In this document: piece after piece, positions 1 through 6,217 of the stretch
Layout: each line of letters opens with the position of its first letter
Numbering within the stretch: the first letter of the stretch is position 1
Made by a program: the position numbers and the translations under genes
The notes under the pieces: generated by a model
What the model was told of the DNA's origin: nothing
Databases searched by the model: none
What the model saw: the letters and a program-made list of their open reading frames with translations, nothing else
From: Rhodobiaceae bacterium
Lineage (GTDB): Bacteria; Pseudomonadota; Alphaproteobacteria; RS24
NCBI GenBank assembly: GCA_024645085.1
Contig: JAHEGN010000017.1
Location: forward strand, 1-34,315
Reading direction: 5' to 3'
DNA: 34,315 bases

Positions 1-2
1 AT

Positions 3-536
3 ATCACCGCTGACTGCATTGCCGCGGCCTTTGAGGTGAAACTTGAAAAACACCCGCTGGCCATGCAGGCTTTGCAAGCCCATTATGACGCCCAAGAAGC
101 TGATTTCAACGAAGCGCGGCAACGCATGGCGCGGATTCCCGAAGGCGCCAGCTTGATTGAAAACCCGGTCAGTACGGCGCCGGGGTTCAAAATCGACAAT
201 GTCTATGTCATGGCTGGCGTGCCCAAAATCATGCAAGCGATGATGGAAAATATTTTACCAACCCTCAAAGGCGGCGAGACCTTATCGTCAATCACCGTCA
301 CTTCCAGCATACCCGAAGGCAGCATTGCCGCTGAAATGGGGGCTTTGCAACAGCAATATCCTGACGTCAATATTGGCCTCTATCCGTTTTACAGTGCCCA
401 AGGGGCGGGTGTTAGCGTGGTGGCGCGCGGTCGCGATATGGCGCAATTACAAGCCGTTGAAACCGCTATTAAGGCGCATTTGGCAGCCATTGGCGCGCCC
501 TTGGTAGCGCGTCCCAAGGCGATTGCCAGCCAATAA
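3..536 (+). CDS. Molybdopterin-binding (MoCF/CinA N-terminal-like) protein, 3' part
   Basis: The gene is cut by the window edge; its frame is open from base 3 and begins with residues ITADCIAAAFEV. This matches the region after the GPTHDD motif of the MoCF domain found in CinA N-termini and in stand-alone COG1058 proteins. The visible 177 residues include the family-typical VMAGVPKIMQAMM stretch, in which the nucleotide/pterin-binding fold closes. There is no C-terminal CinA amidohydrolase domain: the protein ends soon after the MoCF-associated segment, so it is the short form common in alphaproteobacteria. The substrate is unproven; such proteins are annotated as molybdopterin-binding by homology only. 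A GTG lies at position 36, but sequence upstream of it is clearly family sequence, so it is not the start. The next gene follows after about 85 bases. Confidence 0.85.
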   Translation: MTADCIAAAFEVKLEKHPLAMQALQAHYDAQEADFNEARQRMARIPEGASLIENPVSTAPGFKIDNVYVMAGVPKIMQAMMENILPTLKGGETLSSITVTSSIPEGSIAAEMGALQQQYPDVNIGLYPFYSAQGAGVSVVARGRDMAQLQAVETAIKAHLAAIGAPLVARPKAIASQ

Positions 537-580
537 AGCGGCACCAACGAACCTTACAAAAAGTTTAGTTTTACTTTATC

Positions 581-607
581 GAATGAGCGGGCATTGTAGT
601 CTCATTC
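581..607 (+). repeat. Inverted repeat (hairpin) in the 5' leader of the small exported protein gene
   Basis: GAATGAG (581-587) and CTCATTC (601-607) are perfect 7-base complements separated by 13 bases. The second arm ends 4 bases before the strong GGAGGG ribosome-binding site at 612-617. No T-run follows, so this is not an intrinsic terminator for the upstream gene. It could be an operator, or an RNA hairpin that affects stability or ribosome access. The role is inference. Confidence 0.5.
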
Positions 608-621
608 ATACGGAGGGTTTT

Positions 622-870
622 ATGATGAAAAAAATGATTTCTGCAATGGCTGTAGCTGCAATGTTCGCTCTGCCAACTTCTGCCTTGGCTCTGGACTCAG
701 GTTTTGACGCAATGGCAAAATCTGGTAGCCACCAATTCTATGTTTGGTGCACAGGTAAAGCTGATTACACAGCAGCACAAAATGGCGACAATGCCAAAGC
801 TGCTCAGTTGGCTCTGTCAGCGAAAGCTGGCGGCAACTGCTGGCCAGTATGGCAAGGCCTGAACGACTAG
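622..870 (+). CDS. Small exported protein with two cysteines, unknown function
   Basis: An 82-residue protein whose ATG at 622 follows a strong GGAGGG ribosome-binding site (612-617). The frame is open further upstream, to 523, but that part overlaps the previous gene and has no such site. Residues 1-24 form a signal peptide: MMKK, a hydrophobic stretch, and a likely cleavage after ALA. The mature part is about 58 residues, with two Cys (in VWCTGK and GNCWPVW) that could form one disulfide, three Trp and an Ala-rich middle. Codon choice (GCT, GCA, GGT, TCT) differs from the GCC/GGC-rich neighbours and suggests high expression. A leader hairpin lies before it and a perfect terminator after it, so it looks like a monocistronic unit. 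I do not recognise a named family; a small periplasmic disulfide protein is the safest description. Confidence 0.85.
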   Translation: MMKKMISAMAVAAMFALPTSALALDSGFDAMAKSGSHQFYVWCTGKADYTAAQNGDNAKAAQLALSAKAGGNCWPVWQGLND

Positions 871-901
871 TCTTGAAAGACTGGTTGTTTAACCTATTTT
901 G

Positions 902-931
902 AAACGGCGGCCTTGTGCCGCCGTTTTTTTT
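902..931 (+). terminator. Strong Rho-independent terminator after the small exported protein gene
   Basis: AAACGGCGGC (902-911) pairs perfectly over 10 bp with GCCGCCGTTT (917-926) around a 5-base loop, followed directly by a T-run (924-931). It lies 32 bases past the stop of the small gene at 870. It is the only textbook intrinsic terminator I found in the window. Confidence 0.93.
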
Positions 932-2123: not shown

Positions 2124-2211
2124 GGCCTCGTGGTGGAATTGGTAGACACAGCAGACTTAAAATCTGCGGCCCGTAACGGGCGTGACGGTTCGAGTCCGTC
2201 CGAGGCCACCA
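2124..2211 (+). tRNA. tRNA-Leu (anticodon UAA)
   Basis: The 88-base gene folds as a class II tRNA. GGCCTCG (2124-2130) pairs with CGAGGCC (2201-2207), followed by discriminator A and an encoded CCA (2209-2211). The anticodon stem GCAGA/TCTGC encloses CTTAAAA, giving anticodon TAA. A long variable arm (GCCCGTAACGGGC) marks it as Leu. The T-arm is GACGG-TTCGAGT-CCGTC. It lies between the lipoprotein hydrolase gene and the converging zf-CHCC gene. Confidence 0.97.
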
Positions 2212-5413: not shown

Positions 5414-6217
5414 TTAGCTTTGGCTTTTGAAAAAATTAATCAGGTCAGGAAACACACGCCCATCTTCCACCATAAATAAGTGCCCGCCTTCATAAAATGT
5501 CAGCTCGGCATGGGGAAGGCGACTGGCCATATTGCGCATGGCTTCCGGCGTGGCGATGCCATCATAATGACCGCCGGCCAGCCACACCGGACACTTAATG
5601 TCGGCCAGCCTATCCCAGCAGTCATGATATTTGCGCGCTTCCAATTGTTGCTCACGCCCCCACTGATGATTGGCTTCATCAGCAAATGCCGAATGGTCGG
5701 CGCGGGCGATGGTGGCAGCTACCACATCAGGATTATCGGCAATAAATTCATCAGTGACCCGCGTGTCGGCAACTTTCATATAGGTCGTCAACGCGGTTTG
5801 CGGGTCAAGCTCGCGCAATTTGTGCAATGGAAAAGAAGCGCCACCGGCACCACCGGCAGCGGTGCAAAACATGGCGAGGCTTTTAATGCGTTGGCCGTGG
5901 CGCGTCGCTAAATGCTGCGCCACCATGCCGCCAAAAGAAATGCCCAAAACATGCGCTCGCTCTATGTTGAGCCCATCCATCAAAGCGGCGGCGTCATCGG
6001 CATAGGCGGCCATTGTGTAACCATCATCGGGTTTTTCGCTCTGGCCAAGCCCGCGTTGGTCATAGCTTGTGAGCTGAAAATGACTGCTCAGCGGTGAGCC
6101 CATAATATTCGGTTTTTTGCGCAAATCAGCGCCCGAACCGCCCAAAACCAGCAGCGGATCGCCGTTTCCGGCCTGTTCATAGTAAATATTTAGATTGGGT
6201 GTAGATAAAAAGGCCAT
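5414..6217 (-). CDS. Alpha/beta-fold hydrolase (PcaD-like)
   Basis: A 267-residue alpha/beta hydrolase. The nucleophile elbow is GISFG (residues 92-96, Ser94); the likely acid is Asp219 in GGHYDG and the base is His246 in EGGHLF. The N-terminal DQRGLGQS region is typical of the group that includes 3-oxoadipate enol-lactonases and related ester/lactone/C-C hydrolases. No signal peptide is visible, so it is cytoplasmic. It is the first gene of the minus-strand run alpha/beta hydrolase, crotonase-like protein, SDR and M20 amidohydrolase, and is divergent from cysE across 107 bases that should hold both promoters. The substrate is unknown. Confidence 0.9.
   Translation of the reverse strand: MAFLSTPNLNIYYEQAGNGDPLLVLGGSGADLRKKPNIMGSPLSSHFQLTSYDQRGLGQSEKPDDGYTMAAYADDAAALMDGLNIERAHVLGISFGGMVAQHLATRHGQRIKSLAMFCTAAGGAGGASFPLHKLRELDPQTALTTYMKVADTRVTDEFIADNPDVVAATIARADHSAFADEANHQWGREQQLEARKYHDCWDRLADIKCPVWLAGGHYDGIATPEAMRNMASRLPHAELTFYEGGHLFMVEDGRVFPDLINFFKSQS

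Follow-up and report, generated by a model that had tools for sequence, protein, structure and literature searches.

A small, probably exported two-cysteine protein encoded behind a CinA/MoCF-like gene in Rhodobiaceae and relatives

Small, exported, disulfide-bonded periplasmic proteins form a general kind. The protein described here is encoded near the start of a 34,315-nucleotide stretch of DNA that was analysed as a whole (the window). It has in common with that kind a signal pattern, a short mature chain and one pair of cysteines, although no sequence relation was found between it and the described families of small exported disulfide-bonded proteins. Its direct homologues, with 56-95% identity over most of the length, are proteins of Rhodobiaceae, PS1-clade and Parvibaculum metagenome genomes (L022-L033), which share both the chromosomal site and the same two motifs; no function was found for any of them in this unannotated collection. 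In structural comparisons the small layout of YkzG (PDB 4njc), an RNA polymerase interacting protein, is similar to that of the window protein (Foldseek E 8.1; Z 4.0 with an rmsd of 2.4 across 45 residues), with which it has 2% identity. Chance arrangements are common at such Z scores, and we claim no relationship between YkzG and our model. The literature titles listed and the openings of abstracts contain no mention of the protein.

Family motifs, distribution and selection

For the member counts given below we used a family set of 42 members (38 distinct), which holds all matches from the family search, the relatives and the first class draw (24/387). Copies of one and the same contig were counted once, and a later-found member, G777, was left out. 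Two motifs, H-x-[FY]-Y-V-x-C and C-[WK]-[PA]-[VI]-W-[QR]-G, are present in 42/42 members, and every whole precursor has exactly two cysteines, both within the motifs (42/42). The stretch FYVWC occurs in 37/42 members, and G777 has two cysteines with both motifs in slightly altered form (YVYC). A preliminary description of this DNA had proposed looking for conserved spacing of the cysteines and for a WPVWQG ending, and both were found: 29 residues separate the cysteines in 30 of the 42 members (26-34 overall), CWPVWQG is exact in 33/42, and the chain ends 2-4 residues past the last motif across the 42. Besides M1, the positions invariant in the 38 distinct rows are G34, H36, Y39, V40, C42, G54, C72, W76 and G78, while W41 and W73 are substituted in some members. 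As candidates for the Sec-exported, single-disulfide kind, these proteins display the signal pattern, judged by eye, and one conserved Cys pair (42/42).

Homologues were detected in 16 of the 28 genomes of the protein's own family (f1) and in 3 of the 33 other genomes of the same search (19/61 overall). Two overlapping class draws returned them from 24/387 and 22/385 genomes, and in a phylum draw of 397 genomes the own genome was the sole match (1/397). Nine family groups carry the protein: f1 (its own), f4, f5, f10, f50, f110, f115, f151 and f239. The labelled relatives are metagenome genomes of Rhodobiaceae, the PS1 clade, Parvibaculum and one Alphaproteobacteria bacterium. The preliminary description had allowed that the frame might be spurious if related genomes held no homologue and neither transcript nor peptide existed; across the nine groups both cysteines and the WPVWQG-type ending are kept. 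In 11/11 hand-chosen pairs the dN/dS of the mature part lies between 0.00 and 0.11, and on these ratios the coding sequence is under purifying selection.

Database searches placed the protein in no registered family. The window protein matched 0 families of Pfam-A; with the 38 distinct members, seven families appeared at E ≤1, each for one member (best E 0.059) and all below gathering scores. Against NCBIfam the window protein reached 11 bits where the cut-offs are 277 and 357, and the 38 members touched 15 families at E ≤1 (best E 0.03), all below the curated cut-offs. There was no usable match in PHROGs. A PDB sequence search with the single protein returned two chains of one Diels-Alderase (E 0.47 and 0.49), which we judged to be chance, and a search with the 38-row profile returned none. 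By these sequence comparisons the family is unregistered in Pfam and NCBIfam, but it is a common type of protein and not a new kind of system.

Gene structure, flanking signals and codon usage

The coding sequence runs from 625 to 870 on the forward strand and specifies an 81-residue precursor, or 82 residues if the adjacent ATG at 622 is used; both ATGs and the stop codon TAG at 868-870 are read directly from the sequence. The nearest relative, L072, has ATT in place of the first ATG, and the start at 625 is therefore likelier. The preliminary description had given 82 residues for an exported protein: the frame and the exported pattern stand, and the length is corrected. That 625-870 is a real gene is as good as certain. 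The features of the locus are as follows.

1-536, forward strand: 3' part of the CinA/MoCF-like gene, the upstream neighbour outside the unit (family searches, locus comparison)
550-572, forward strand: conserved AT-rich promoter-side element, AACCTTACAAAAAGTTTAGTTTT, with 12 columns invariant in 15 same-family leaders
581-607, forward strand: 7-bp leader inverted repeat, GAATGAG at 581-587 and CTCATTC at 601-607, loop of 13 (sequence)
612-617, forward strand: ribosome-binding site GGAGGG (sequence)
625-690, forward strand: predicted signal peptide, residues 1-22, ending in ALA (sequence pattern kept across members)
691-867, forward strand: mature domain of 59 residues, predicted beta-beta-alpha-beta, with C42 and C72 (model from residue 24)
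860-891, forward strand: 14-bp hairpin overlapping the stop codon (sequence, folding)
901-931, forward strand: intrinsic terminator, GC-rich stem at 903-925 followed by a T run (terminator scan, folding)
2124-2208, forward strand: tRNA gene (tRNA-Leu TAA in relatives), a downstream landmark (Rfam, locus scan)

The strong ribosome-binding site that had been claimed is present as GGAGGG, and a GGAG-type site precedes the gene in 16/16 same-family loci listed. Most of the 38 aligned members show, by eye, a basic start, a hydrophobic stretch and an A-x-A-like end, and from this pattern the precursor is very probably exported, with a presumptive location in the periplasm. After ALA the mature part has 59 residues, close to the 58 or so first proposed, and contains the expected two cysteines (C42, C72) and three tryptophans (W41, W73, W76). 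The precursor ends in NCWPVWQGLND.

Upstream signals are less uniform. The leader hairpin of the preliminary description is present in the window as a 7-bp repeat, but its conservation is unclear. Folding of 570-640 was no better than that of shuffles (z -0.26, 78/200), while the 42 nt ahead of the ribosome-binding site gave p 0.037 in the window. Among 16 same-family leaders the mean z was -0.88, with p < 0.05 in 4/16, and among 23 leaders of other families it was -0.33, with p < 0.05 in 0/23. A conserved regulatory RNA at this place is thus unsupported, since 570-640 folds like shuffled sequence, although 4/16 f1 leaders do reach p < 0.05. The longest conserved block in 15 f1 leaders lies at 550-572, upstream of the interval 581-931 first described, and resembles AACCT[TA]ACAAAA..TTTA.TTTT. 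This could be a UP-type promoter element or an operator. In genus g4 (L071, L007, L010) the promoter-side element is palindromic, CCAAAT-GTTA-ATTTGG in 2/3 loci, a form that hints at an operator. With up to 3 mismatches allowed, the 550-572 element occurs just once in the own genome, and a single copy at that threshold argues against a regulon-wide operator.

At the 3' end, the hairpins of 860-935 fold far beyond shuffles (z -9.1, 0/200). A terminator scan requiring a stem of 7 or more, with 5 or more GC pairs and 6 or more T in 8, passed two sites in the window, the one at 901-931 and one at 5861-5839 on the reverse strand. This second site falls within the frame 5414-6217 (reverse strand) and has a broken T run, which leaves 901-931 as the only clean terminator of the window, as had been asserted. 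A GC-rich stem and T run of similar type follow the gene in most relatives. An Rfam search of the window matched two tRNAs only.

Codon choice was compared with two backgrounds by a log-likelihood ratio, ribosomal versus window, on which the small gene scores +0.248 per codon. None of 197 80-codon pieces from 29 window genes reaches this value (maximum 0.040), nor does any of 74 pieces from 24 ribosomal and EF-region genes (maximum 0.223), and EF-Tu scores 0.128. By a CAI-type index, however, the small gene is unexceptional, with 61/197 window pieces scoring as high. The distinct codon choice noted earlier is seen by one measure and not by the other. We give the log-likelihood ratio more weight, as it sets two backgrounds against each other, and we retain the CAI result as a caution. 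The product is likely to be highly expressed, an expectation drawn from codon bias, which is not a measure of abundance.

Chromosomal site and inheritance

Upstream of the small gene, and on its strand, 39 of the 42 loci have the CinA/MoCF-like gene; two of the remaining three are too short to judge, and the third (G303) has a map homologue upstream instead. The distance from the end of the CinA-like tblastn match to the start of the small gene is 84-114 bases in most f1 loci and 157-424 bases in other families. Inserts separate the two genes in four f1 loci, and in three of these relatives (L025, L027, L070) the insert is a gene of roughly 330 residues in antisense orientation. With its own terminator, its own conserved upstream element and an antisense gene between it and the upstream gene in those three relatives, the small gene deserves the label of a self-contained unit that it had been given. 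On the downstream side, tRNA-Leu(TAA) was found in 19/27 member loci scanned and in 5/16 loci where the CinA-like gene is present but the small protein is absent. The gene at 958-2070 encodes a metallo-beta-lactamase-fold hydrolase (Lactamase_B_2, E 2.1e-34) with a lipoprotein-like start (LSSC), and in 14 loci its relatives follow the small gene. Separately, an exact copy of window positions 1-121, which lie inside the CinA-like gene, sits at the end of contig C21. That contig encodes the N-terminal part of the CinA-like gene as well as a map homologue, an arrangement that resembles a break in the assembly with overlapping contigs.

The protein is missing in 12/28 f1 genomes, some of which are incomplete (56-99%), so that gaps may explain part of the absences. 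Eight of these twelve (six genomes of genus g3 together with G007 and G010) also yielded no CinA-like gene, and the other four have it at a contig end; for this reason there is no intact-but-empty site among the f1 genomes examined. In G021, one of these four, the contig stops just past the conserved promoter-side element. Within genus g3 (G004, G008, G011, G014, G017, G020) neither gene was found in 6/6 genomes, which suggests that the site was lost or rearranged once. The CinA-like gene is present without the small protein in 16 class genomes that were examined, and no diverged members were recognised by eye behind it among the frames listed. Pairwise identities of the small and CinA-like proteins correlate (Spearman 0.53, 38 loci, the pairs being non-independent). 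On a CinA-like tree of 56 rows with many long branches, in which G003 and G021, of undecided carrier status, were counted as carriers, the carrier label requires two changes (bootstrap 2-4) against a shuffled mean of 14.1. This pattern fits inheritance in place. A mobile or phage-borne protein was considered and rejected: there was no match in 72,556 plasmids and 50,697 phages, eight pattern matches in viral contigs gave 0 confirmed, and the same neighbour is kept in 39/42 loci.

Predicted fold and possible roles

An AlphaFold model of the mature part (from residue 24, 12 sequences) has a mean pLDDT of 91.5 and a pTM of 0.74. Its order is beta(11-19)-beta(25-31)-alpha(34-45)-beta(49-56), preceded by a short helix, and the cysteines fall where strand 1 ends and strand 3 begins. 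If strands 1 and 3 are neighbours, both cysteines would sit on the same edge. DsbB is encoded in the own genome, which also gave two Thioredoxin_4 matches over cut-off, so a disulfide could be made, and we consider with good confidence that C42 and C72 form one. Foldseek gave weak matches to the PDB (best E 2.5 for the precursor model and 3.7 for the mature model) and a best E of 0.45 against viral models; second looks with VIA-align reached Z 4.3 and 4.4. The matches of these models stay within a common small alpha/beta arrangement and give no evidence of a new fold.

We favour the reading that the protein is an abundant, exported, disulfide-bonded, non-enzymatic periplasmic binder or structural factor, because it is probably abundant, exported and two-cysteine, with no obvious catalytic set; taken whole, we give this a probability of roughly 0.4. 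We hypothesize that a vertically inherited single-gene unit yields a small exported protein at high level, that the precursor would leave the cytoplasm through Sec, and that its two cysteines would be joined in one disulfide by the DsbA/DsbB system. The protein may then stay periplasmic, abundant and without enzymatic activity, and the conserved aromatic strand residues Y39, W41 and W73 might bind an envelope component or partner, or serve self-association. This aromatic face is not strictly kept, since W41 and W73 give way to other residues in some members. Against the same reading we count these replacements, the CAI-type index, the lack of a structural relative of known role and the 12/28 absences in f1.

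Strong conservation over the whole mature length of a small exported protein, with invariant C-terminal residues, is what a tight interface needs, and the disulfide-locked domain could instead cap one specific partner as a dedicated inhibitor or regulator of a single periplasmic or envelope enzyme or sensor. We regard this as rather unlikely: no gene for a partner accompanies it, its regular neighbours being the CinA/MoCF-like gene and genes unlike envelope enzymes, and the codon bias suggests bulk amounts. Secretion past the outer membrane, for example as a matrix component or an antagonistic peptide, is improbable as well. The export signal pattern, small stable disulfide domain and high predicted expression would suit an extracellular or surface protein, but the conserved neighbourhood has no immunity gene or transporter, and strict purifying selection at a fixed position is not diversification.

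There is little chance that the protein shares a pathway with the upstream CinA/MoCF-like product. Adjacency in 39/42 loci speaks for it, as do the eight f1 genomes, six of one genus, that are without both genes; that joint loss, however, may reflect one deletion or assembly gaps. Furthermore, the small protein is very probably exported and the CinA-like product is without sign of export, and the CinA-like gene stands alone in 16 class genomes examined and is separated by inserts in four f1 loci. Strong 3' hairpins notwithstanding, a spurious frame over a conserved RNA is next to impossible given the dN/dS values, protein-level conservation in nine family groups, the codon bias and an Rfam search that matches only tRNAs.

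Returning to the periplasmic binder or structural factor, its boldest form, which we hold to be unlikely, would be an undescribed disulfide-locked beta-beta-alpha-beta family that is among the most translated proteins of PS1-clade marine bacteria and their relatives, has its own promoter element and serves as a bulk binding or assembled part of the envelope. In a small genome of 1.7 Mb this gene has been retained; purifying selection on it is strong, and its codon bias exceeds that of the ribosomal genes. If the protein is as abundant as its codons suggest, an envelope protein absent from Pfam and NCBIfam would be a blind spot of marine metaproteomics, and the relatives in Parvibaculum make its role testable beyond the uncultivated marine clade.
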